35,301 nucleotides of DNA, from contig JAFRHL010000047.1 of the NCBI GenBank assembly GCA_017433295.1, positions 1-35,301 on the forward strand, given 5' to 3'. This document shows positions 265 through 29,804 of this stretch, piece by piece. The translations under genes were made by a program, and so were the position numbers. Below the pieces are notes generated by a model. The model searched no databases and was not told where the DNA came from. It worked only from the letters and a program-made list of their open reading frames with translations. The first letter of the stretch is position 1. Each line of letters begins with the position of its first letter. Source of the DNA: Eubacterium sp. (GTDB taxonomy: Bacteria > Bacillota > Clostridia > Lachnospirales > Lachnospiraceae).

Positions 265-3200
265 TTATCTGTTCTGTCTCTTTCTCGCCAGTAAAGCTGC
301 TCCGGCCAGACTCACGAGTGTCATACCAAGGAGATAAATGCTCCTTGTCCCCGGGCCTCCGCTTTCCGGCAGCTCGACACCGGGACTGTTATATAATGTC
401 AGCTCCCAGACATCCCTGCCTTCAGAGTCTTTCACAGGCTCACATTCCAGTGGTTCCTGGTCCAGATAAGCCTTTATATCGTTTGTTCCGGCACTGGTAT
501 TTATCTTTACAGGTGCCGGGAGAAGGCTGTAACCATCCAGAGTTTTCGTTTCAAAGAGATAGTAACTTGTATTATTGCCTTCCAATCCTCCAAGATTCAG
601 AATACCGTCCTTGTCTGTGATACCTATCTGCTGAGGGGTCTCTCCCTCTTTTGGCAGGTTATTCTCAACCTGGCTTTGCTTATAGAGTGCAAATTCCACT
701 CCTTCAAGGTTCTTACCATTTGCATCCGTATCTTTCTTCCTGATGCGGACCGGGTTCTTCGGCGTGTTTTTAACTGTGATGCTCATAACCCCGTCAACTG
801 TGTCAATCACTGCAATATCCGGGGTTACAGGCTTAAATGTCCAGGGGCCTGACTGCTGAGGCCGGATCGCCTGCTGCAGGGTCACCTCTCCTGCTGCCGA
901 GATCATGATCCGGATGTCGCATCCCATGGAGATGTAGCCTGATGGGGTTTCGATCTCCCTCAGATAATAGTTGCCGGCAGTAAGCCCCCCGGGATTATCG
1001 GAGTTTTTCATCGCAGTTCCGGGAATAATACCATTTTCATCCGTCTCCAGTGATCTGTATCCTTCCATGGGCTGATAATCGGGCATCGGTTTTTCAGGAT
1101 CAGACAGGCCGTTGCTGCCGGAAGCTAAGATTTCTCTGTAAAGGGCGAACCTTACACCTGACAGAGCTTTCCCTGAGTATGAGTCGATCTTTTTTGCCTC
1201 AAGTGTACAGCTCTCATTCTTAATCGTTACAGTCGGCATCGCATCTGCTGTCGGGGGAGTATCAAGATTACTGATGATATAATAACCATCCTTATGGTTC
1301 TCAGTACTGTCATTGACCTTAACGGTATACTTATCGCCATCGACCTCGACTTTAATTTTCACCGAATCAATCAGGGCCCGGTATCCATAGGGAGCCACGG
1401 TTTCTTTAAGGGTATACTCTTTTCCCGGTTTCAGATAGGCCACTGCGATCAGACCATCTTTTGATGTGAACTCCTTGTTTTTTCCATCCACCTCTGACAA
1501 AGTAAAGACTGCTCCAGACAAAGAATTTCCTTTCAGATCCTCTTTTAACAGCTTGATACCCGGTCTGAAGTTTGTGACAGTATCTGTCCGGATATTTGGA
1601 TATTTCCCATCTGCTCCGGCCTTAAGCTCCTGCCGTGAATAACCTGCTGTATATAAGAGACTTGACGAATACCCTTGTTCATTCGTTTCTCCACCGGCTG
1701 TCAGAGTATCTTTTTCAGCGATTTTTATAATGTTATCTTCTTCGATTTTATGATATTTAGTTGTCTCCCCGGTCACTGTTGTATAACCGGTTACCTCCCC
1801 CGAAGAATCGATGGATACTTCTCCAAGGCTGCTGCCCTCCGGTACTTTCAGCATGATCTCATAGACTTCGTAGTCATTCAGGCTGTCCGCACCCTCATCG
1901 AGTTCCGGGAAAAACCAGCTTAATGAGTTGTCTGTTTTTCCCAGCTGGCGCACGGAATGTGGAACCAGACCGCCATTTTTGAGATAAACCGCAAAGTATA
2001 TCTCATCATGGTTGATCATAAAGTCTGCATCTGACCAGACTTTTTTGACGATGAGTCCATAGCCGTGCTGATTGTGAACAGTGACTGTCCGGCTGGCAGT
2101 GATGGAACCTGTAATAACCTTACCAAGCTCCTGGCGTTGTTCTTCATTTCTAAGTTCATTCTCGTCCAGAGTATATCCCAGCCTGTTATATCCGGCGGGA
2201 ATCTCATCGTCCCGCTCTGCCACCATGAATTCCGTGCCGCTCATAAGCCCGGGGATCTCTACACTGTATCCGGCTTCGATATTTTCAATCGTTCCATACT
2301 CAGAAGTCTGGAAGGTACAACGCTGCTTAAGGGTATCTCCATGCAGGATGGCCGGATCCACATATATATTATTAAGATCCTCAAAGTTGTTTGTACCGGT
2401 GGAAACAAAATCTCCGTCATAGTAATAGCAATAGTCTCCTTCCGGGTTCTTCACACGATAATCGCCCATTGCGTAAATCATGTATTTATCGTCTTTTTTC
2501 CCGATATACACACGGAACTTGAATCTTGTGCTGTCTTCTGTGTATTTGATCTCGTTTTTCCTGTCATTATCCCGCCAGAGTTTTTTCGTGATGGTCAGGG
2601 ATTTCATCGCCCCAGGATTTACATGATTTTCATATATAACCTTTTTGCAGCTGGAAACTGTCTTCTGGGCAGTGATGAAGTCTTTAAAAGCAGACTCTCC
2701 CTCTATCTCCCTCGGCTGGCCTCCCTGGTTCAACTCAGTATTGTTATAAAGATCAGGCGTCGGGTTTTTTTCCTCATTCACCTCATCGTTGACCTTGACC
2801 CAGTCGTATAGGGCAGGGGAATCCAGGGCACATTCTTTGATGTAATATTTCCGGTCCTCGCTCCCGAGGTTTACGGAAATGATCTGTCCTGCTTTCAGGA
2901 AGAACACATCTTTGTATACCATGGTTTTACCACCGGCCATAACGGAATATTCAGGCTCATAATGAACCGGATCTTTCGGGAAGCGAACATCTGTTACAGA
3001 TTCAGTACTATTCACCTTTGTCCATGCATCATTCTCGTCCTGATACCAGATCTGGAAGGGGAATTCCGTCTGGGAATTCTCTGTGCCGGATACTTTTTTC
3101 TCAAGCTGTATCTCACCTTCTTTATATTCCGAAAGATTGAAACGCATACGAAGATTGGAGGCTCCGGCTCCCCGTTCCAGATAGAACATCCTCATGGTAT

Positions 3201-6200
3201 GGCTGGAATAATCTTTGAATACGGTACCATCCGTGCCGTCTGCATTCTTTTTAAAAATGTCATTTGCCCAGTTGTTGACCTCTTCTTCTCCGGCATTTGG
3301 GTTCTTTTGCTTATAGGCTTTGATAAATTGTTCCCTGAGGGTATAGGTTACTCCGTTCTCAGTGATCTGGCCTGTTTTAAAGTTGATATTTCCGTCCAGT
3401 GCCGAATGAATACCGCCCAGGTCAAGAACCAGCATATCATCGATATACAGCCAGAAATCGTCATCCCCCGAGAATTCAAAGATCAGGTCATGGCCCCAGG
3501 CATCCTCACCGTTTTCACTCTGCATAAAGCGGGCAGACATTTCCATCCCGAAGAAATGATCCACATTGGGAAGCTGGTGTTTTTTGTCCCATTTAATTTC
3601 ATACATGGATTTTCCATAGTTGGGATCCAGAGTGGACAGCATATTTGCATGAATATCCGTTGTATTCTTATATATCTTTGATATCTTTTTGGTTTCTGGG
3701 ATTAAATTGCCGTTCTCATCATGGCAATAATTCCCATTCTGGTCTTTCTTAAACCCTTCAATCAAATCGTTGTAGGGAAGGAACTGGCCATGCCGCAGTG
3801 TGTCCTTACCGGTTTCGCCGGACGTTCCCAGCTGGTCATAAATTACAAAGTCGCCTACGGCATATTTCCCTCCGCCCGGTTTATCCAGACCGCACCAGGG
3901 GTCTTCTTCCTTTGATATCAGGTGAGCGAAGTTGCGGGTGGAATCGTATTCAAAATAGCCGGTCTCCTTATAGGTGCTCATGAGGAACTGGTTATTCACT
4001 GTGGAGGCACCATCAAACAGGGTGCCCAGTGAGGTCGGGGGATCCTGCCCTTGAACAGCATTGGGATAACCTGTTCCGTCATTTATATTTCTTTCCAGCA
4101 GATCTTTGGTTCCGGTCCACTGTTCATAGGGAGTATCTCCCAGAACACTGGTCATCTGGGGACTTCTGCCTCCGGTGAGGTCTTCATTCTCCCCAAAGTC
4201 TTTCATCTTCAATGTGATCCCGTGGTCATTATTATCCACTGTGGCAACTGTGGTCACGATTTGTTTGTCATTGGTATTCTCGATCATCCTGGCGAAGTAG
4301 AAATCGCTGGCTTTTGATAATGTTGAAGAGCATAGGCTCCTGTTCTCCTCATCTACCTTCAGTGAGGCATAATAGTAGTCATCCCAGGCCAGGATCGTGG
4401 TATAGTATTCGTTTTTATACCGTCCTTTAAGCTGGATACCGATTTTTGCGTCGGCGAGGAAGCCTTCATCACCATCCGAAGTCTTCGGGGCAATATATTT
4501 CTTTGAATATGGATTGTATAACTCATAATAATGATTCGGCTTCTGTGTTTTTTGATCATAATACTCTGTGAAATCCCACAGCATAGTATTATTTTTGCTG
4601 CCGACCCAGGAAATTGTATCTCCGAATTCGTAGGCTTTTATCAGCTTTCCGTCATAGTCAATGATATAATACTCATATTTACTGCCATTCCAGATACGGG
4701 TATAAACGATTACCTTATCGCCGTTTTTGACGTCTCCGGCTTCTTCTGAGATGCTGACCTTCTGGGAAGTATATGTCACAAAGTCATCATCATTCATGCC
4801 CGCAAGTGTGGCAAAATTCATCCAGACGCCCTGACCGTTATCCCTGGCGGTTGTTTTTTCAAACCAGCTCCTGCCGCCGTTTACTTTAAGGGCACCATTT
4901 TGGGTGCTGAACTTATACTTTCCTTCATTATTTCCTGTTCCGGCATCTATCTTTATTCGACAGTCATCGTCGGTTCCATCGTCTGCCAGTGATATTCCGT
5001 CACTGCTGATCTTAAGGTATTTCAGCTCAGATCCCACATATGTTGAAACGGAGTATCTGCCGCCGCCGGCCTCATTGAAAGTCCAGCTGGTAATATTACT
5101 GTTACTTGCAACATAGACATAGTCTTCGCGGTTAACGGTATTTATACGAACCGTTGTTGCTTTTCCCTGCAGCTTGCTGCCCTCTTTGTCGGCGGCAGCC
5201 ATCAGGGCTGTACCCTTGGGATTTGTCCCGTCCTCCGTATTGATCAGGCAAAAGCTTTTCCCCTTCAGATCCTCCAGATCATTTGAGGGCTCCAGCTTCA
5301 CGATGGCATAGACTGAAAACTTCTCCGCTTCGAAGGTAACTGCCACTTCGTCTTTCTCAGATTCAGTATCTTCCACATCCACCTCCCGGATGACTTCGGG
5401 CTTCTTCGATTCATCGGCAAAATGTACCACCTGGGTATCTGCCAGCTTATTGCTTTCGGCTTCCTTATATTCAATCTTTACATTAACCGGGCCGGCAGGC
5501 TCGATTTCTTTTTCCTCCTGGCCGCCGACGAAGGTTATGTCAAAGAAGCGGGCGACTGTTACGGTACCGTTCTTCTCCCTGACGGCAGCTTCAGCCCGTT
5601 CGTAATAATCCTGGTATTCCTTCTTCTCCAGCCTGCTGGTAGAGTCCTCCCTGATCTCACGGACATCAATCTTAACATCTTCAGGAAGCTTTGCGTCCTT
5701 CCCGTAGCTTGCAGTTACCGTAAAATCCCTGCCTTCATAAGTCAGAGTGCCCTCAGAGTATTCGTCCTCCCGGGCGGTGACCTGTGTGGTCGCCTCTGCC
5801 GGGGTATTGGCTTCCGTAGTCGCCTCAGCCAAGTGCTCAGCCTCGGTGGTCTTTTCCGGATCTTGAGCTTCCGTGGCTGTCTCGGCCGGATCTTGAGCTT
5901 CCGTGGCTGTCTCGGCCGGATCTTGAGCTTCCGTGGCTGTCTCGGCCGGATCTTGGGCTTCCGTGGCTGTCTCGGCCGGAGTTGTTGATTCTTCAGGATC
6001 TGCTTCCTTCTCAACACCTTCAAATGTAGTCGCAATGACCTGGTCATCCTGGTTGCTGTCCGAAAAGATGACCATATTGCTGCCATCCTCCAGGGGCTTT
6101 ACAGACCTGCCGGTAACATAGATGTCCGCCCACACGCTGACGTCCTTCTCTGCATTCTCGGAGATCATGGCAGAATTCCAGTCCACGGTCATGGTCCACC

Positions 6201-7308
6201 TTCCGGTGTTCTCGTTCTGACTGATGGCATAGCTGCCTGCTCCGGTGTCCTGAGATCCCTGATGGTTATCCGGCGTGGCTGTTCCCAGGATCAGCTGGGA
6301 CATACCCCGGTCTTCATTGTTATGCCAGTTGGCGATGACATCTGTAAACTCGATGTTGCCAGGGAGCATATACTTTGTGTCATAGGTGGCAGCTGTCACA
6401 GTTCCTTTTTTGAACTTCATGGCCAGATGGACACATACAAGGTCTTTCTCCTGCAGAACAGTACCCATCCTGACTCTCTTCCAGGAAGCTCTCTCTTTAT
6501 CAGAGGATCTGAAATACCACATTCCTGTATTCCGGGTCATATGATCAGACAGGTTGACGGCCAGCGCGCCTTTACGCTCTGCCTCTTTCTCATCTACAAC
6601 CTCTGCGTACTCTGTGGCGATCTCTTTATGTTCTTTTGTCTTTTTAACAAAGACGACTTTATTGCTGTCATCATCCAGAGGCTTTAAAGCTTTGGCAGTG
6701 ACATACATATCCGCCCAGACATCCACAGGCTTTTTTTCATTCTGGGATATAAGATAGGGATCCCATTCCGCAATCAGTTCCCATTTGTCTGTTTCTTTGT
6801 TTTTTGTAATCTTGTATTTTCCCGCCAGGTATTTCTGTCCTCCGGAGTTTTTGTCCGGGGTGGACCTGCCGAGAATCAGCTGGTTCATTCCGTGGTCATC
6901 ATCATTGAGCCAGTTGGCGATGACATCCGTGATCTGAACACTGTCAGGTATCTCATAGATCGACTCAGAAATATTGTCAGTGACAATCCCCTTCTTAAAC
7001 CTTAATGCCAGATGAAGGCATACCAGATCTTTCTTCCCGAGAACCGTGTCCTTATCCACTTCTTTCCATGAAGCTTTGTCTTTATCTGATGGTCTGTAGT
7101 ACCATAGTCCTGTATCATCTGTTAAATAATCGGCAAGATCCATAGTATCGGACTGGTTGTTATCTTCAAGGGCAAATGCAGGCTGAATGTTCATACAAAC
7201 AATGATACACACCAATATTACTGCTATTGCTGTTAAAACGGCAGTCAGGCTCCTGTTTTTCCTTTGTTGAGCAATTTTTAACTTAATCTGATCACCTGAT
7301 TTCTTCAT
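265..7308 (-). CDS. Giant LPxTG-anchored adhesin / pilin-like surface protein
   Basis: A 2347-residue surface protein. I start it at ATG 7306-7308 because AGGAGAT lies 6 nt upstream; an ATG at 7326 has no such site. Residues 1-46 are a long Gram-positive signal peptide (basic N-end, hydrophobic core, AFA cleavage site). Two ~180-residue copies of one domain follow (about 57-235 and 247-425), then four exact 10-residue repeats (PAETATEAQD, about 444-484). A fibro-slime domain is clearest around 1250-1305 (FSGDDDFWLYIDD). Five Cna-B/SpaA-like modules start near 1565, 1745, 1917, 2033 and 2185; the last three carry paired Lys and Glu motifs (for example LKETVAPYGY) typical of isopeptide-bonded pilin folds. 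The C-end is LPESG (2313-2317), a hydrophobic segment and RKRQNR, a sortase substrate signal. Expected role: covalently anchored adhesion or pilus tip/backbone. No sortase is in view; two signal peptidases lie upstream. Confidence 0.93.
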   Translation of the reverse strand: MKKSGDQIKLKIAQQRKNRSLTAVLTAIAVILVCIIVCMNIQPAFALEDNNQSDTMDLADYLTDDTGLWYYRPSDKDKASWKEVDKDTVLGKKDLVCLHLALRFKKGIVTDNISESIYEIPDSVQITDVIANWLNDDDHGMNQLILGRSTPDKNSGGQKYLAGKYKITKNKETDKWELIAEWDPYLISQNEKKPVDVWADMYVTAKALKPLDDDSNKVVFVKKTKEHKEIATEYAEVVDEKEAERKGALAVNLSDHMTRNTGMWYFRSSDKERASWKRVRMGTVLQEKDLVCVHLAMKFKKGTVTAATYDTKYMLPGNIEFTDVIANWHNNEDRGMSQLILGTATPDNHQGSQDTGAGSYAISQNENTGRWTMTVDWNSAMISENAEKDVSVWADIYVTGRSVKPLEDGSNMVIFSDSNQDDQVIATTFEGVEKEADPEESTTPAETATEAQDPAETATEAQDPAETATEAQDPAETATEAQDPEKTTEAEHLAEATTEANTPAEATTQVTAREDEYSEGTLTYEGRDFTVTASYGKDAKLPEDVKIDVREIREDSTSRLEKKEYQDYYERAEAAVREKNGTVTVARFFDITFVGGQEEKEIEPAGPVNVKIEYKEAESNKLADTQVVHFADESKKPEVIREVDVEDTESEKDEVAVTFEAEKFSVYAIVKLEPSNDLEDLKGKSFCLINTEDGTNPKGTALMAAADKEGSKLQGKATTVRINTVNREDYVYVASNSNITSWTFNEAGGGRYSVSTYVGSELKYLKISSDGISLADDGTDDDCRIKIDAGTGNNEGKYKFSTQNGALKVNGGRSWFEKTTARDNGQGVWMNFATLAGMNDDDFVTYTSQKVSISEEAGDVKNGDKVIVYTRIWNGSKYEYYIIDYDGKLIKAYEFGDTISWVGSKNNTMLWDFTEYYDQKTQKPNHYYELYNPYSKKYIAPKTSDGDEGFLADAKIGIQLKGRYKNEYYTTILAWDDYYYASLKVDEENRSLCSSTLSKASDFYFARMIENTNDKQIVTTVATVDNNDHGITLKMKDFGENEDLTGGRSPQMTSVLGDTPYEQWTGTKDLLERNINDGTGYPNAVQGQDPPTSLGTLFDGASTVNNQFLMSTYKETGYFEYDSTRNFAHLISKEEDPWCGLDKPGGGKYAVGDFVIYDQLGTSGETGKDTLRHGQFLPYNDLIEGFKKDQNGNYCHDENGNLIPETKKISKIYKNTTDIHANMLSTLDPNYGKSMYEIKWDKKHQLPNVDHFFGMEMSARFMQSENGEDAWGHDLIFEFSGDDDFWLYIDDMLVLDLGGIHSALDGNINFKTGQITENGVTYTLREQFIKAYKQKNPNAGEEEVNNWANDIFKKNADGTDGTVFKDYSSHTMRMFYLERGAGASNLRMRFNLSEYKEGEIQLEKKVSGTENSQTEFPFQIWYQDENDAWTKVNSTESVTDVRFPKDPVHYEPEYSVMAGGKTMVYKDVFFLKAGQIISVNLGSEDRKYYIKECALDSPALYDWVKVNDEVNEEKNPTPDLYNNTELNQGGQPREIEGESAFKDFITAQKTVSSCKKVIYENHVNPGAMKSLTITKKLWRDNDRKNEIKYTEDSTRFKFRVYIGKKDDKYMIYAMGDYRVKNPEGDYCYYYDGDFVSTGTNNFEDLNNIYVDPAILHGDTLKQRCTFQTSEYGTIENIEAGYSVEIPGLMSGTEFMVAERDDEIPAGYNRLGYTLDENELRNEEQRQELGKVITGSITASRTVTVHNQHGYGLIVKKVWSDADFMINHDEIYFAVYLKNGGLVPHSVRQLGKTDNSLSWFFPELDEGADSLNDYEVYEIMLKVPEGSSLGEVSIDSSGEVTGYTTVTGETTKYHKIEEDNIIKIAEKDTLTAGGETNEQGYSSSLLYTAGYSRQELKAGADGKYPNIRTDTVTNFRPGIKLLKEDLKGNSLSGAVFTLSEVDGKNKEFTSKDGLIAVAYLKPGKEYTLKETVAPYGYRALIDSVKIKVEVDGDKYTVKVNDSTENHKDGYYIISNLDTPPTADAMPTVTIKNESCTLEAKKIDSYSGKALSGVRFALYREILASGSNGLSDPEKPMPDYQPMEGYRSLETDENGIIPGTAMKNSDNPGGLTAGNYYLREIETPSGYISMGCDIRIMISAAGEVTLQQAIRPQQSGPWTFKPVTPDIAVIDTVDGVMSITVKNTPKNPVRIRKKDTDANGKNLEGVEFALYKQSQVENNLPKEGETPQQIGITDKDGILNLGGLEGNNTSYYLFETKTLDGYSLLPAPVKINTSAGTNDIKAYLDQEPLECEPVKDSEGRDVWELTLYNSPGVELPESGGPGTRSIYLLGMTLVSLAGAALLARKRQNR
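5858..5977 (-). repeat. Four tandem 30-bp repeats in the adhesin gene
   Basis: Four head-to-tail 30-bp units (5858, 5888, 5918, 5948) are identical except for one A/G change in the last. They encode the 10-residue unit PAETATEAQD. More decayed units (AEATTEANTP type) flank them. The stretch is a Thr/Ala/Glu-rich spacer between the N-terminal domains and the rest of the adhesin. Near-identity suggests recent expansion and likely length variation between strains. Confidence 0.95.
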
Positions 7309-7373
7309 ATAATTATCTCCTTCCATACCTTTAAATGGTTATGGGGAATACGTTATACAATAATTCGTTTTGT

Positions 7374-17500: not shown

Positions 17501-20500
17501 CTATAAATTATTTACACCTTCCTGAAAGCTGTTTTCCGCCAGTATCCTCATGGATTTCTCCTCAAATTCCTTGGCCAGGATAGAAAGGAGTCTTTCGGAT
17601 TCAATGGGCTTTGCTATGCAGGCATTCATTCCTGCGTCATAACAACGGGATTCTGTCTCGTCCTCCACATCTGCTGTGAGGGCGATCACGGGAACATTGG
17701 CAGAATCCGCCGTTCCCAGCTGGCGTATCTCCCGGGTTGCCTGCAGGCCGTTCTTCACCGGCATCATGATGTCCATGAGGATTGCCTGGTAATAATAGGG
17801 TCCCTGATTGCGGAAGAGCTCTATGACCTCCTGGCCGTCCCGGGCAATCTCCGCATGGATCCCCTTGGTATTCAGGATCTTTACGATCACCTCGGCGATG
17901 ATGTGATTATCCTCGGCCACCAGAACATTTTTGCCGAAGAGGAGCTGGTCTTCATAATTCCTTGTCTCCCGGTTCTGGAGCCGGATCTGTTCGTCGGTGG
18001 CAAGGTCAAAACGCAGTGTCACCACGAATTCCGAACCTTTGCCGACCTCGCTGGTGAAACGGATGCTTCCTCCCAGAAGATCCACCAGGCTCTTGCAGAT
18101 AAAGAGTCCCAGTCCTGTGCCTTCCCTGACCTCATTACTGTCGGTTTCCTGCTCAAAGGGCAGGAACATATAATTCTGGAAGCTGCGGCTGATGCCCTTT
18201 CCGGTATCGATGATCCGGTATGTATGGACAGATTGTCCCTTTTCGTAGGCCACATCCAGCCGGAAGGTGATCTTTCCGCCCTTGGGGGTAAACTTGATGG
18301 CATTGCTCAGCAGGTTGACCAGGATCCGCTCGGCATGCTCCGTATCCATGAGGACATATTTATCCTGGCTTCCAAAAATCTCAAACTCAAAATCAAGGGA
18401 GGCCTCGCCTGCCTGCTGGGAGATCATATCGGAGATGGACCGGCTTAAGGTGTTCTCGCGAACCGTGGAATTGAGTACCACCACTTTTCCTGCATTGATC
18501 CGGCTGGTCTCCAGTATCTCATCGATCAGGCCCATCAGATAATTACCTGATATTTCTATCTTCTTCAGGCTGTCCCGGGTGTCCTCGGGCAGGTCTTCTC
18601 TGGAAAGCTCCAATTGGGTAAGGCCTAAAACCGCTGTCATGGGAGTCCGCATATCGTGGCTCATATGGGAGAGGAAGGTTTCCTTCTCCTTGCTGGACTT
18701 CACTGCCTGTCTTAAGGCCTTGGCCATCTCCTCGATCTGCTGCTGGTCGTCCACCTGCTTTGTGGTATCTACAAATGTAAGGACAAGGCCCTTGAGCTGC
18801 TTTTTGGCAGTCCCTGCCTCCGGTTCGAATACACTCATGCTGTCCCGGGCTTTTTCCATGACATTATAGGGGGCGATCCTTACCAGATAGGTCTTGCCTG
18901 CCATGGAGGCGCAGTGCTTCTCAATGGGCTTCATGGTCTCAAGAACCTCCTGGCAGAGGCTGATAAGGTCTATGGTGCCGAAATGGAAGGACAGGTAGCG
19001 GAGAGACCTTCCCACATCCTGGTCTACTATATTAAATTCCTCGGCAATATATTCGGTAAATTTACGGATATTCAGTTTTCTGTCCACCATGAGGATCCCC
19101 ACCAGGGTCGTGGACAGGAAATTGGCCATGTCATCATTGACTGCCGCCAGCTCATTTACCTTGATCTGGTACTCTGAATTCACGGTGTAAAGCTCTTCAT
19201 TGACAGACTGCAGCTCTTCGTTGGAGCTTTGCAGTTCTTCATTGGCCGTAAGGAGCTCCTCGTTGGCTGCCTGAAGCTCCGCATTGACGGACTCCAGCTC
19301 CGTTACGGTCTGGCGGAGATTCTCCTGGGCGATCTTCAGCTCATTTTCAAGGTTCATGATCCGCTGGGAAGCGGCGGAATCGATCTGGTAATGACGGATA
19401 TCGCCTGAGAATTCCCGGTTCCCGCGAATAAAGAGCACCGCCGTATAGTCTGTCCTCTCCCCCCTCTTATCCAGGACCGGACTGGCGGATAAAGCAATGA
19501 CCTCCGGCCGGCCGGGAACGATCTCCAGGGGAATGGAATCATAGGTGACCTTCTTCATCTGAAGCCTGCACTCCCGGACCACCGTGGAAACGGCGATCTT
19601 CAGGTCTTCCCTGACCATGGAAAAAAGGTCCGAAGTCATGACCCCCACCGGCACCACCAGGAAGGTGGCTATATCACCGTAGGTCCTCCAGATCTCATTT
19701 TTCTCGTCAATGAGGGCGCAGGCGGGCATAAATTCTTCGAATACAGCGGTTTCCAGCTCGCTGGGTTTATACTGGATCTCATCTGTCATATCATATCCGG
19801 CGCTGTAAATGGGTTCCAGGGCGTGGTCCATGGTCTCCATGCTGTAATTCAGCTTCTCATGGGAGGGCAGCTTGCCGGACGCATTGTGGATAAAAATCTT
19901 CTCATTTGCCGAGATTACCCGGTAAACATCGTCATAGTCAAAGACGGACTCCGACCGGCCTAAAAACAGATAGCCCCTGTCCTTTAAGGCCACATGGAAT
20001 ATGGAAAAAAGGTTGCGCTGCAGTACGGTCTGGAAATAGATCAGCAGGTTCCGGCAGCTGATCAGGTCCAGCTTGCCAAAGGGCGGATCCTGAAATACAT
20101 TGTGCTGGGCGAAAATGATCATGGTCCTGAGATCATGGCGTACCACGTATTTATTGCCCTTCCTGGTAAAATAGCGGCTCAGGCGGCTGACACTGACGTC
20201 CTCTATGATATTGTCCCCGTAAATGCCTCTTCCTGCCTTATTGATGGCGTCGCCATCCAGGTCTGTGGCAAATATCTTGATATTTCTCCTGATATCCAGT
20301 TCTTCCATTACCTCCATAAATAATATGGCAATGGAGTAAGCTTCTTCTCCGGTGGAACAGCCTGCCACCCAGACCCGGATCTGGTCTGATTTGGAGCCGT
20401 TCCGTATAAGGTCCTTGATGACACGTTCCTTTAAAGCGTCAAAGTATTCCGGATCCCGGAAAAAGCAGGTGACACCGATCAGGACCTCCTTGGCCAGGAC

Positions 20501-21304
20501 CCTGGCTTCGTCCGGATTCTTGGACAGATAGGTGACATACTCCCTCAGGTTGGTATTGTGGGTCACCACCAGTCTCCTCTCGATCCGGCGGAGGATGGTG
20601 GTCTGCTTATAGTACTGGTAATTGATATTGGTTACCTGCTTCAGGATGGAAAATACCCTGGACATGAGCTCGTTATCCGACAGCTGCATCCTGGCGCTGG
20701 TATCGGCGATGGATGAAGCAATGTGGGCCATCTCCCTGGCAATGTTCTCCGGATTCCGGATCATATCCACGATGCCGGTGGATATGGCATTCCTGGGCAT
20801 TCCGTCAAACTTGGCGCTGTCCGGGGACTGGACGATGATAAGGCCATTGGCTTCCTTGATGGATCTGATGCCATTGGTTCCGTCAGAACCGGTACCGGAC
20901 AGGATCACCGCAATGGACCGGTTCTCATAGGCCACCGCCAGAGAGCGGAAAAATATATCCACCGGGTGGTTGATCTTGGTGTGATCGTACTCCTCAAGGC
21001 GAAGCGTGTCCGACTCGATCTCTATATTATAGCGGGGAGGAATCATGTAAATATGATTCTTTTCAACCCGCATGCCGTTTTCCGCTTCAATCACGGGCAT
21101 GATCGTATATTTTGCCAGAATCTCCGATAAAAGGCTCTTATGATTCGGGGCCAGATGCTGAATGATCACAAAGGCCATCCCTGTATTACTGGGAAGATAG
21201 GTTAAAAGCTGCTGGAGAGCCTCAAGCCCTCCCGCGGAAGCACCGATACCCACCACGCAGTTTGGCTGCGCTGCCCCTTTAGAACCAGTTTTTTTCCCTT
21301 CCAT
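17501..21304 (-). CDS. CheB-CheR-PAS-histidine kinase-receiver hybrid sensor
   Basis: 1267 residues, GGAGG 10 nt before ATG. Order: CheB methylesterase (about 15-195; catalytic Ser23 in GASAGG, His50 in IIQHLAPNH, Asp141 in GTGSDG); CheR methyltransferase (about 215-475; VAGCSTGEEAYS and IFATDLD SAM site, ISCRNLLIYF); a long coiled coil of NEEL-type heptads (about 650-725); a PAS-like segment; HisKA with intact His883 in SHMSHDMRTP; HATPase with NAIKFTP, DTGKGIS and GTGLGLFI boxes; and a receiver with Asp1178 in LMDIMMP. All catalytic residues I can check are present. Unlike chemotaxis CheB, there is no N-terminal receiver. No signal peptide, so probably cytoplasmic. It is followed by an Hpt gene and divergent from a pseudokinase-receiver gene. 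Confidence 0.93.
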   Translation of the reverse strand: MEGKKTGSKGAAQPNCVVGIGASAGGLEALQQLLTYLPSNTGMAFVIIQHLAPNHKSLLSEILAKYTIMPVIEAENGMRVEKNHIYMIPPRYNIEIESDTLRLEEYDHTKINHPVDIFFRSLAVAYENRSIAVILSGTGSDGTNGIRSIKEANGLIIVQSPDSAKFDGMPRNAISTGIVDMIRNPENIAREMAHIASSIADTSARMQLSDNELMSRVFSILKQVTNINYQYYKQTTILRRIERRLVVTHNTNLREYVTYLSKNPDEARVLAKEVLIGVTCFFRDPEYFDALKERVIKDLIRNGSKSDQIRVWVAGCSTGEEAYSIAILFMEVMEELDIRRNIKIFATDLDGDAINKAGRGIYGDNIIEDVSVSRLSRYFTRKGNKYVVRHDLRTMIIFAQHNVFQDPPFGKLDLISCRNLLIYFQTVLQRNLFSIFHVALKDRGYLFLGRSESVFDYDDVYRVISANEKIFIHNASGKLPSHEKLNYSMETMDHALEPIYSAGYDMTDEIQYKPSELETAVFEEFMPACALIDEKNEIWRTYGDIATFLVVPVGVMTSDLFSMVREDLKIAVSTVVRECRLQMKKVTYDSIPLEIVPGRPEVIALSASPVLDKRGERTDYTAVLFIRGNREFSGDIRHYQIDSAASQRIMNLENELKIAQENLRQTVTELESVNAELQAANEELLTANEELQSSNEELQSVNEELYTVNSEYQIKVNELAAVNDDMANFLSTTLVGILMVDRKLNIRKFTEYIAEEFNIVDQDVGRSLRYLSFHFGTIDLISLCQEVLETMKPIEKHCASMAGKTYLVRIAPYNVMEKARDSMSVFEPEAGTAKKQLKGLVLTFVDTTKQVDDQQQIEEMAKALRQAVKSSKEKETFLSHMSHDMRTPMTAVLGLTQLELSREDLPEDTRDSLKKIEISGNYLMGLIDEILETSRINAGKVVVLNSTVRENTLSRSISDMISQQAGEASLDFEFEIFGSQDKYVLMDTEHAERILVNLLSNAIKFTPKGGKITFRLDVAYEKGQSVHTYRIIDTGKGISRSFQNYMFLPFEQETDSNEVREGTGLGLFICKSLVDLLGGSIRFTSEVGKGSEFVVTLRFDLATDEQIRLQNRETRNYEDQLLFGKNVLVAEDNHIIAEVIVKILNTKGIHAEIARDGQEVIELFRNQGPYYYQAILMDIMMPVKNGLQATREIRQLGTADSANVPVIALTADVEDETESRCYDAGMNACIAKPIESERLLSILAKEFEEKSMRILAENSFQEGVNNL

Positions 21305-21346
21305 AACGCACTTTCCTCCGTGTTAATTAACTTGCTGATCCCTGCT

Positions 21347-21542
21347 GTTACTATTCACGGCCTGATCCGGCTATGATAACGGAAGGTTCATGCTTGCATG
21401 AAAACAGACATTATCATAGCCGGATCAGGCCTGCGAAGCAGGAACCCCACCTACAGCCTCAGCGATAAGCATCGAAGATGCGGCATACTCGCCTGAGCGA
21501 GGATGCGCTGAGGCTTGTAGATGGGGAGCCGTGAATAGTAAC
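21347..21542. mobile_element. 196-bp multi-hairpin element with 15-bp terminal inverted repeats (MITE-like)
   Basis: Termini GTTACTATTCACGGC (21347-21361) and GCCGTGAATAGTAAC (21528-21542) are perfect inverted repeats. Inside: a perfect 21-bp stem (21359-21379 with 21411-21431) capped by TTCATGC/GCATGAA; a CCTGC-GAA-GCAGG hairpin (21430-21442); a ~19-bp stem (21445-21464 with 21506-21526, one mismatch and one bulge) enclosing GCATC-GAA-GATGC (21469-21481) and CTCGC-CTGA-GCGAG (21488-21501). TCCCTGC occurs at 21339-21345 and again at 21543-21549, like a target-site duplication. No coding capacity is seen. It could be a miniature transposable element, or a structured RNA. It sits between divergent signalling genes. 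Confidence 0.7.
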
Positions 21543-21581
21543 TCCCTGCATGCCAACATAAAATTAATACCCAGAATATGG

Positions 21582-21610
21582 TTGAAATTTTATTTCTTTT
21601 CCAGTATTAT
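21582..21610 (+). promoter_or_regulatory. Promoter of the pseudokinase-receiver gene
   Basis: TTGAAA (21582-21587), a 17-nt spacer and TATTAT (21605-21610). The leader would be about 110 nt and contains a small GTTG-TTTT-CAAC palindrome. Confidence 0.6.
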
Positions 21611-21728
21611 ATACCTAAAGGTTAGTTGTTTTCAACAAAAATGTAATCAGAAAACCGCTTTAAGTTCCGGCTGCAGATAATCACCCGGGACACTATAGAT
21701 TAAATGTACAGAAAGGATGTGTGGGATA

Positions 21729-23402
21729 ATGAATAACAATACAGACATAATCCATAATACGACAGCTTCCGAACAATTATCAGGCAAGACGACTCCCGCC
21801 GAAATGCCGGAGCCTCCCGACAAAGAGGCCCTGTTATCCCGGATAGCCAGGAGGGCATTCGATGCTGATCATGAGTGTCTGTTCCTGATCGACCCGACCT
21901 CAGGTAAGGCCAGAAAGCTCTGGCAGTCAGACCCCTCAGCCTCCCTTTTTCCTGCCTCCTTTGATTATACGGAAGTGATCGCTGATTATTTTACCAGATA
22001 CTGTTACGAGAAGAACCCCCAGGAAATCATCCGGCAGACCTCCATCGCCACCATGCAGTCCATGCTCCGGATCCAGGATATTTACAGCATCACTTTTTAT
22101 GTGACAGGACCGGATCACCGGCTTCTCCACAAAAAAGCCACCTGCTTTTATACCGATGAAACGAAGGAAACCATCAGTCTGCTGATCCGGGACACCACCA
22201 AAAGCTTTGCCGATGAACGTGACCGTTATCTTGAACTCCAGAAGGCCCTGGATGAGACCCGGGCCATCGCCAAAGCCAACACCCGTTTTCTGAAGCTTTT
22301 TAACCGGGATATGAGGACTCCCATCCACTCCATTCTGGGCCTGGCCGAGATCGCCGACAGCGAGGTACAGAATCCGGATGTCATAAGGGATTATCTGTAT
22401 AAGATCAAGAGCGCCGGAAGCTCCATGTCCGAGATCATTGATGATATCCTGGTATTATCCCGTATCATACAGTCACCGCCCACCCCGCATCCGGAGACCA
22501 TTTCCTTAAAGAAATGGCTGGGATTCCTGCAGTCGGCCCTGGCGGAGAAGCTCCACTACAGGGGCCTGACTCTGCATTTTGATATCCAGGATGATATGTC
22601 CGAAGAGGTTGTCACCGACGCCTACTTCTTAAATATCACCTTACAGAAGCTCCTGATATTTGCGGTGAATAATACCGTCCGGGGCGGCGAGATCCACCTT
22701 TCGGTTCAGGAACTCCTGCAAAAGCAGCATAAAACCTTAATGGAATTTACCGTGATCAGCCACGGCATTGATCTTCACCCGGAACAGATCGAGAATCTCT
22801 TCCGGCCCAATGAATATCTGATGAATGAGCTGAGCAGCGATTTAAGCAGTGTGGATCTGAACACCGTGATCCTGAAGTACTATGTGGCGGCCCTTGGAGG
22901 AACCATAGTGGGACACATCGGCGCCGGAACACCCACCATGATCACAGTTTCCCTGAATTTCTTACTCCCTGAGAAAATCGAGCCTCCTGTCCCGGAGCAG
23001 GCCTCCCCCGGGATTCCCGATCTGCATCAGTACAACGCCCTGATCGTGGATGATGATCCCATCAACCTGGAAGTCGGCACCAAGCTGCTGGCCCGCACAG
23101 GGATACATACCATTTCAGAATCCAACGGCCTTGACGCCCTGCTGGCGGTCCAGGATTCCGGAGGAAAGCTGGATGTGATCCTGGTCGACATCAGGATGCC
23201 CGGCATGGACGGCCTGGAGGTCGCCAGGCGGATACGGCAGATGCCTCTGCCCTATGTGCAGAAGGTTCCCATCATCGCCATGACAGTCAATGATTCAGAC
23301 GAGGACCTTAAGATGAGTCTCAAGGCCGGCATCAACGCCCACCTCATCAAGCCCATCGAACCCTCCGATCTGTATGAGGTACTGAGGAAGTTCCTGTCAT
23401 AA
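21729..23402 (+). CDS. Degenerate histidine kinase with intact receiver domain
   Basis: 557 residues from ATG 21729; an ATG at 21717 abuts the AAAGG site and is less likely. Residues about 20-165 have no domain I recognise (sensor). Residues about 185-415 have the layout of HisKA plus HATPase, but the H-box reads LFNRDMRTP, with Arg193 where the phospho-accepting His belongs. The ATPase boxes are also eroded: SHGID replaces DxGxG, and the GLGL box is absent before the conserved AALGG. The receiver (about 435-557) looks functional: DDD, phospho-accepting Asp487 in LVDIRMPGMDG, Thr in AMTVND and Lys in HLIKPIE. It is expected to be a phosphorylation target or scaffold rather than a kinase. Divergent from the CheB-CheR hybrid kinase, its likely phosphodonor system together with Hpt (inference). 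Confidence 0.85.
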   Translation: MNNNTDIIHNTTASEQLSGKTTPAEMPEPPDKEALLSRIARRAFDADHECLFLIDPTSGKARKLWQSDPSASLFPASFDYTEVIADYFTRYCYEKNPQEIIRQTSIATMQSMLRIQDIYSITFYVTGPDHRLLHKKATCFYTDETKETISLLIRDTTKSFADERDRYLELQKALDETRAIAKANTRFLKLFNRDMRTPIHSILGLAEIADSEVQNPDVIRDYLYKIKSAGSSMSEIIDDILVLSRIIQSPPTPHPETISLKKWLGFLQSALAEKLHYRGLTLHFDIQDDMSEEVVTDAYFLNITLQKLLIFAVNNTVRGGEIHLSVQELLQKQHKTLMEFTVISHGIDLHPEQIENLFRPNEYLMNELSSDLSSVDLNTVILKYYVAALGGTIVGHIGAGTPTMITVSLNFLLPEKIEPPVPEQASPGIPDLHQYNALIVDDDPINLEVGTKLLARTGIHTISESNGLDALLAVQDSGGKLDVILVDIRMPGMDGLEVARRIRQMPLPYVQKVPIIAMTVNDSDEDLKMSLKAGINAHLIKPIEPSDLYEVLRKFLS

Positions 23403-28721: not shown

Positions 28722-29804
28722 TTATCCCCCTATTGCTATCATTTTATTTGTTTCTGAAATATCTTCTTTTTTCTCGAAACAGTGAGCCTCCGGTTTTTTT
28801 CTGATCACTTCTTTTAATATCTCCGCCGCTGCTTCTTCCCCCTGCTGCCGGAGAATCTCCCGGATATTCACGGAGGTTCCATAACAAAGACAGGGCTTGA
28901 GGTCTCCCGTGGCCGTCATCCTGATCCGGTTGCAGCTGCCGCAGAACTTGCCATGAATGGCGCTGATAAATCCGATACTTCCCTGATAACCCGGCAACTT
29001 ATAATAAACGGCCGGCCCGTTTCCGTGAATCTGCGGATCCTCCCGGATCTGCAGGGCTTCGTGAGGCTGCAGGGTCTCACAGGGCTGCAGGGCTTCGTGA
29101 GGCTGCGGGTCCCCTTGGGACTGCCGGGCTTCGTGAGGGTGCGGAACTTCTGAGGGTTCCGGAAAACGCCTTTTCAGCGCATCTAACAGTTCCCTGTTGG
29201 ATACCCCGGAGAAGTCCGCCCCTGCCCCAATGGGCATCATCTCAATAAACCTTACATCCAGCGGCCGGTTTTTTGCCAGTTCGACGATGTCCGTCCACTC
29301 CCGGTCATTGACTCCCCTCATAAGAACCGTATTGATCTTTACCCGGAGGCCTGAATCTATGGCAGCCTCAACCGATGCCAGTACATCATTAAGGTGATCT
29401 TTTCCGGTGATCTTCTGATAAGTTTCCCTGTTCAAGGTATCCAGGCTTATATTTACTGCGTCAAGGCCGGCTGCCTTTAGCTCCGGCAGATACTCTTTCA
29501 GCAGGACTCCGTTTGTAGTCATGGTCACCTGGCGGATCTCCGGCAGCTCCTTGACCATCTTTACCAGAGAAACCACCCCTTTTCGCACCAGGGGCTCTCC
29601 TCCGGTAATTTTAATCCGGTCGATGCCCAGCCGGGAGGCCTGCCGGCAGACCGCCGTAATCTCCTCCAGGCTCAGCAGGTCTGTCATGGGAAGAATCTCT
29701 ACGCCCTCCGGCATACAATAGCGGCAGCGCAGATTACATTTATCCGTAATGGAGATCCGCATATAATTGATCTGTCTTCCATAATTATCAAGCATGATAG
29801 TCAC
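28722..29804 (-). CDS. moaA: GTP 3',8-cyclase (molybdenum cofactor step 1)
   Basis: 360 residues. A radical-SAM enzyme that with MoaC turns GTP into c[11 protein letters not shown] gives the N-terminal CX3CX2C cluster; [18 protein letters not shown] gives the C-terminal CX2CX13C cluster; TGGEPL and RFIEMMPIG are further family motifs. Unusually, about 40 residues of 6-residue repeats (HEALQP type) are inserted before GNGPAVYY, where most MoaA proteins go straight on. GTG at 29804 has GGGGGA nearby and overlaps moaC by 17 nt; ATG 29795 is an alternative start. Confidence 0.93.
29031..29138 (-). repeat. 18-bp tandem repeats inside moaA
   Basis: Six 18-bp units start at 29031, 29049, 29067, 29085, 29103 and 29121. 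Units at 29049 and 29085 are identical (CTGCAGGGCTTCGTGAGG on the + strand) and the others differ by several bases. They encode 6-residue units such as [12 protein letters not shown] and PQPHEA. The frame is kept, so the insertion is a Pro/Gln/His-rich loop. Confidence 0.9.

Follow-up and report, generated by a model that had tools for sequence, protein, structure and literature searches.

Non-autonomous transposable elements (MITEs) with stable stem-loops have long been known in bacteria, among them Correia/NEMIS, ERIC, the Yersinia palindromic sequence and RPE, which are described as elements of about 100-200 bp with terminal inverted repeats and, in some cases, a target-site duplication, and whose predicted transcript structures are long, stable stem loops (PMC2229807). 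The 196-bp element analyzed here is alike in these respects and differs from them in its IS66-type ends, its 8-bp duplication, its branched multi-helix fold and its hypervariable paired arm. In other bacterial repeats covered by the same source the stem loop is formed by the repeat's own two ends, while the Caulobacter CIR element consists of two arms and a linker (PMC2229807), and compensating changes have been described for short repeats on Borrelia plasmids (PMC2674063). MITEPsy1 from Pseudomonas syringae, the transposition of which was shown by its authors, has ends that resemble those of a resident insertion sequence, as does the element studied here; however, it comprises 100 nt, has a 4-nt duplication and was assigned, with a query, to IS5, and its description contains no mention of a branched fold such as the one present here (PMC3189936). 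IS66-family insertion sequences have both the ends and the 8-bp duplication in common with our element, which, in contrast to them, encodes no protein and shares no sequence apart from the ends with the four that were compared. The table of a Paracoccus survey gives for two IS66 elements the figure 8, which we read as the duplication length (PMC3281130). No description of an IS66-type MITE in Lachnospiraceae was found in the open-access literature and, as far as that literature shows, the element represents a new MITE family: its kind is known, and the novelty lies in a branched fold that is conserved although one of its arms is hypervariable, with pairing retained.

We propose that the element is a MITE that was moved, now or formerly, in trans by an IS66-family transposase acting on the same ends (GTTACTRTTCACRG...). 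As a whole this explanation is very probable; the part of it according to which the hairpin arms are kept for pairing at the DNA level has about an even chance of being correct. The transposase would act in trans on the ends of the element, and insertion duplicates 8 bp of the target. A hairpin or cruciform in the DNA might serve replication, or recognition by the transposase or by host proteins, and the sequence of arm A would drift freely provided that the halves can still pair with each other.

The element is located in a stretch of 35,301 nucleotides from a contig of Eubacterium sp. (Lachnospiraceae), hereafter the window (Table 1). A sequence-only reading had described a multi-stem element with terminal inverted repeats, a perfect 21-bp arm, a 19-bp arm and four small hairpins, two of them with GAA loops. 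The element is real: folded as RNA, the region 21339-21549 reached -117.7 kcal/mol as compared to a mean of -63.3 for shuffled sequences (z -12.2, equalled by 0 of 200 shuffles), the opposite strand gave a z of -12.9, and both the ends and the 21-bp arm are perfect inverted repeats. In the minimum-energy fold a stem formed by the ends is followed by arm A with its tip hairpin, a hairpin with a GAA loop and the branched arm B with two terminal hairpins. All four small hairpins are present, and a GAA loop is found in two of them, as had been read. The arm given as 19 bp corresponds in this fold to 18 pairs, with bulges between them, which close arm B, and the statement that almost every base pairs is slightly overstated, given that 152 of the 196 bases are paired. 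None of the listed open reading frames of at least 80 aa overlaps the element, which is short, bears terminal inverted repeats and has no transposase gene. Screening of the whole window against Rfam at gathering thresholds yielded 0 matches among 4227 families. With loose (E-value) thresholds the matches were limited to one miRNA model and one snoRNA model, both far under their gathering scores. This result and the literature search bear out the earlier impression that no named family matches. Another very stable fold in the window, near 29009, lies within the range expected from its composition (z -1.7).

Table 1. Coordinates of the element, its parts and neighbouring features in the window.
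Feature	Position	Strand	Basis or remark
MITE, 196 bp	21347..21542	+	'arm A first' orientation
Left terminal inverted repeat, GTTACTATTCACGGC	21347..21361	+	exact inverted repeat, 15 nt, 100% match
Right terminal inverted repeat	21528..21542	-	exact inverted repeat, complement of GTTACTATTCACGGC
Arm A, left half (21-bp hairpin stem, hypervariable among copies)	21359..21379	+	100% complementary to 21411-21431
Arm A, right half	21411..21431	+	exact inverted repeat with 21359-21379
Arm A tip hairpin	21387..21402	+	fold; helix 3 of alignment A1
Small hairpin CCTGC-GAA-GCAGG	21430..21442	+	fold; helix 4 of alignment A1
Arm B, branched, with terminal hairpins 21469-21481 and 21488-21501	21445..21526	+	fold; helices 5-8 of alignment A1
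Left target-site duplication, TCCCTGCT	21339..21346	.	7/8 identical to right copy
Right target-site duplication, TCCCTGCA	21543..21550	.	7/8 identical to left copy
CheB-CheR-PAS-HisKA-HATPase-receiver hybrid kinase gene	17501..21304	-	Pfam
HisKA and receiver gene, no HATPase_c at E 1e-5	21717..23402	+	Pfam
Promoter-like site TTGAAA-18-TATAAT	21606..21635	-	consensus match 11 of 12

Many copies with variable flanks, which the sequence-only reading had named as a test of mobility, were indeed found. Of the 397 genomes searched in the family, 23, that of the window among them, contain a pair of the end repeats spaced by 140-170 bases, with up to nine matches per genome, and a reversed control gave none. 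Scanning of public genome contigs for the end pair returned at least 118 stretches; among the 80 matches listed from public genomes, 34 carried the title Lachnospiraceae, and the others came from Blautia, Pseudobutyrivibrio, uncultured Clostridia and the like. Altogether 136 distinct elements at 135 loci were collected, and 100 loci were compared with R1, a covariance model built from 25 elements including the window copy; most of the other 35 loci carry different types of element with common ends, and near-duplicates from the same genomes were set aside with them. On the better strand, R1 recognized 99 of the 100 loci with E-values no higher than 1.8e-18, where the seed sequences match by construction and the E-values are rough, and only L222 had no match at E 1e-8. 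The window copy, being one of the 25 seeds, likewise matches by construction, over positions 1-194 of 194 with 138.7 bits on the plus strand as compared to 64.8 on the minus strand.

Both blastn and R1 detected a single full copy in the genome of the window, where the end repeat also stands alone, including at two places near contig ends. Of the 24 genomes of the genus, two, among them that of the window, were matched by blastn, and 15 gave some match with R1 at E 0.001, with more than 90 bits only in the genome of the window and in G019; most of the other matches are taken to be different elements with common ends. Across the class, R1 matched 4 of 291 genomes at E 1e-10, namely the window's own, two more of its family and one from another family. 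Plasmid and phage collections queried with two different family members gave no match. In viral contigs an exact 14-mer was found in 93 stretches; among the 80 listed, only L072 has the inverted pair, and the single matches are presumed to be due to chance. A search of phage records for the L072 prophage site returned two matching records, which cover only a different part of the query.

Along with these copies, several related arrangements were observed. L153, L163, L168, L183, L208 and L235 as well as G006 harbor elements measuring about 173-175 bp that have the common ends and a different interior, many of them with matching 8-bp flanks, and it seems that these ends serve at least one further MITE family. 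In Blautia parvula NZ_CP084061 (L264, L269, L277 and L278), palindromes of about 47 bp, in which a short spacer separates two end repeats, are possibly collapsed copies of the element. Two elements each stand in direct tandem, nearly abutting, at L194 (4144-4514) and L213 (7332-7711). The genome of the window also holds a truncated copy (G000:C26:1-107, L120), in which the small GAA hairpin directly adjoins the end repeat, as would result from a deletion of arm A.

The duplicated flanks have a constant length of 8 bp. Taking the eight bases immediately outside GTTAC...GTAAC, the duplication is perfect in 49 of 125 elements with both flanks and reaches 7-8 matches in 72, the flanks of the remaining 53 agreeing at fewer than 7 of 8 positions. 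With the comparison shifted by one base in or out of register, 0 and 1 perfect duplications were counted. For the structured set (n = 98, one element per locus) the corresponding numbers were 34 perfect and 50 at 7-8 matches; re-dealing the right flanks 1000 times gave a mean of 0.34 perfect and 0.67 at 7-8 matches, with maxima of 3 and 4. The octamers differ from copy to copy and are AT-rich (71% as compared to 63% in the nearby flank). At the window copy, a 7-bp direct repeat had been read from the sequence: TCCCTGC is present at 21339-21345 and 21543-21549, but the true unit is 8 bp, with 7 of 8 positions matching. The single difference between the two octamers is as expected of a somewhat older insertion.

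Additionally, element-free sites, likewise proposed as a test, were found for another copy, that of G319, which is located just upstream of a gene that by eye reads like a response regulator at its start. Of the 21 genomes in the search around G319, ten, counting G319 itself, match this locus or part of it. The two flanking genes are separated by 119 bp in G430 and G426, with no copy of the element and with what appears to be a common terminator hairpin between them; for G427 and G424 the alignment covered a single gene, and the element is absent from the adjoining region. The end repeat at up to one mismatch was found in 0 of 10 stretches from eight relatives (G430, G426, G427, G424, G422, G423, G425 and G429). 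The MITE reading is thus supported by many copies, variable duplicated flanks and sites without the element. The region of the window copy itself was compared with four genomes of the same genus; they have no full element there, and the sequence after the shared gene differs too much for a clean comparison. In one of them, the leader upstream of the ortholog of the window kinase (L363, G019:C53) contains a lone exact 14-base end repeat near the place of the window element, and an older insertion near that place in G019 is possible.

A candidate for the moving enzyme was found in IS66-family elements. PF03050 matches were obtained in 6 of 10 genomes searched and none in the window's own. Exact ends were found on both sides of 3 of 30 IS66 loci, on one side of 6, and near-matching ends on both sides of 3; the other 18 fall into none of these groups, which indicates that only part of the IS66 elements carry these ends. 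Schaedlerella arabinosiphila (G420) harbors three copies of a 2176-bp IS66-family element with exact ends on both sides and a perfect 8-bp duplication each, and its transposase (P0001) matches PF03050 at E 4e-15. In the genus of the window, G006 has a 2420-bp IS66-family element with the same ends, flanked on both sides by TTTGACTG, the transposase of which matches PF03050 at E 2e-16. The G019 element has the same ends and a near-duplication shifted by one base, and the G321 element has near-matching ends and no duplication. PF03050 together with a perfect 8-bp duplication was observed at all three full G420 copies examined and in G006, and not in G019 or G321. Autonomous elements with the same ends occur in G420, G006 and G019. 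The left end of the window element is identical to the right end of the G019 element and one base off the G006 ends.

With P0001 as query, 4 of 24 genomes of the genus matched: full-length relatives with 46-47% identity are encoded in G006 and G019, the two genomes with full IS66-family copies, a weak match was obtained in G003, and the window's own genome retains a transposase tail at a contig end (C21:3-146, 48 residues, 63% identity, E 2.4e-14), with an end repeat at C21:248, about 100 bases away. An intact IS66 transposase was not found in this genome, which is 91% complete, and P0001 had no match among PDB sequences at E 0.01. Judging from the common ends and the duplication length, an IS66-family transposase is the likely agent that moves the element. 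Comparison of the MITE interior with four IS66 elements revealed only the ends in common, and origin by a simple or recent internal deletion of these four was rejected, as the interiors have no common sequence. All four properties looked for in a MITE, i.e., short length with terminal repeats, target-site duplication, dispersal and an autonomous element with the same ends, were observed.

The fold is conserved among copies. In an alignment of 25 elements, 82.4% of the structure cells are standard pairs as compared to 67.7 after shuffling, and 51 of 74 pairs show double changes; the compensating changes that had been proposed as a test are thus present in the structure. The covariation score was 0.401; shuffles gave 0.156, and sliding of the partners no more than 0.143. 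As the proposed structure had been drawn from one of the aligned sequences, it has some advantage over the slid versions. Helix 3, the tip of arm A, is paired in 99% of cells, with double changes in 3 of 4 pairs, helix 4, the small GAA hairpin, in 82%, and helices 5-8 of arm B in 65-79%. Arm A diverges faster than the rest. In a comparison of 98 elements limited to pairs with a remaining sequence at least 70% identical, the pairs not being independent, arm A was on average 77% and the tip 88% identical where the rest averaged 93%, and 54% and 70% where the rest averaged 72%, with shuffled arms at 49%; in single pairs, arm A fell to 48% at 91% in the rest. Despite this divergence, a median of about 28 predicted pairs was kept in arm A and its tip, with a minimum of 14. 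A search for an origin of arm A elsewhere in the genome, in which up to 3 mismatches were allowed, gave two further matches, each of them with 3, and k-mers common to arm A and the locus flanks were near the shuffled level. A 14-mer common to arm A and the flanks was found in 2 of 99 elements, L194, which has a tandem copy, and L243, where it is unexplained.

The observation that pairing is largely kept while the arm sequence approaches the random level might also be due to passive copying, i.e., template switching or correction within the hairpin that transfers one half to the other without selection. The near symmetry of G-U and A-C intermediates would be in accordance with this. However, one-sided changes outnumbered double changes by 18 to 5 in the closest element pairs, which indicates that double changes as a rule do not arise in one step, and double changes also occur in the tip hairpin and in arm B. 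Taken together, passive copying appears somewhat unlikely.

The second alternative is that the element is a functional structured RNA, either a cis-regulatory leader or a small RNA, which hitchhikes on IS66-type ends and whose RNA fold is selected. Selection for an RNA fold should leave G-U intermediates on the transcribed strand in far greater number than A-C. Isolated mismatches on the arm-A-first strand showed a G-U to A-C ratio of 68:40 in 99 elements, one per locus (p 0.009), and of 50:24 when the set was cut to 66 elements with under 85% similarity (p 0.003), and given this excess in the larger sets the element may have a role as RNA. The conserved multi-branch fold with covariation also argues for this alternative, as does the promoter-like site in the window (Table 1; 3 such sites were detected in the scan as compared to 1.3 expected), from which the minus-strand kinase mRNA would start with all of the element in its leader. 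By contrast, at the strictest redundancy cut, which kept 43 elements with under 75% similarity, the ratio was 28:23 (p 0.58), and pairwise counting of one-sided changes in arm A gave 206 G-U, 169 A-C and 295 other mismatches, a count drawn from 211 non-independent pairs of 109 elements with base pairs taken from folds that allow G-U. Moreover, there was no orientation bias relative to tandem genes (24 versus 22; a crude ORF caller was applied to the 75 of 99 elements with enough flank, 71 of which were classed and 11 of the 75 overlapped a called ORF), and no Rfam family was matched. The substitution pattern thus neither speaks clearly for the folded-RNA option, which the sequence-only reading had kept beside the mobile element, nor rules it out, and weighing all of these points we consider this option unlikely. 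Together with the unbiased orientation, the substitution pattern makes us lean towards pairing that is kept mainly in the DNA, where a change in one half would come first and be compensated afterwards.

A further reading would see here a mobile folded nucleic acid with a purposely diversified part, in which a conserved core made of ends, tip, small hairpin and branched arm is joined to a stem that changes from copy to copy with its pairing kept. We hold this to be quite improbable; if true, the shape would be needed and sequence common to sister copies disfavoured, or each copy would need its own specificity. That the element is an ordinary, immobile terminator or attenuator is hardly credible: it sits between two divergent genes and folds strongly, but no terminator-like site was detected in 21200-21760, and the dispersed copies with duplications and the site without the element speak against it.

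Returning to the MITE in its genomic context, the sequence-only reading had placed it between a catalytic hybrid kinase and a divergent pseudokinase and suggested that it may affect both. The second of these genes encodes HisKA and receiver domains without an ATPase domain at E 1e-5, which makes its product a candidate pseudokinase, in line with that description, and a putative effect of the element on the neighbouring genes is possible. Among the 71 classed loci, insertions between divergent genes (20) were more frequent than between convergent genes (5), which may reflect longer, AT-rich promoter regions. Elsewhere in the window (265-7326), a 2353-residue open reading frame with SpaA-type prealbumin-like folds probably encodes a surface protein.

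The identification as a MITE explains a repeat that, seen in one genome, would otherwise resemble a new RNA gene. Furthermore, about 100 natural variants of one fold are now at hand, which permit asking directly what purpose a branched hairpin serves in a mobile element, and whether its pairing matters for the DNA, in transposition or replication, or for the RNA, in regulation.
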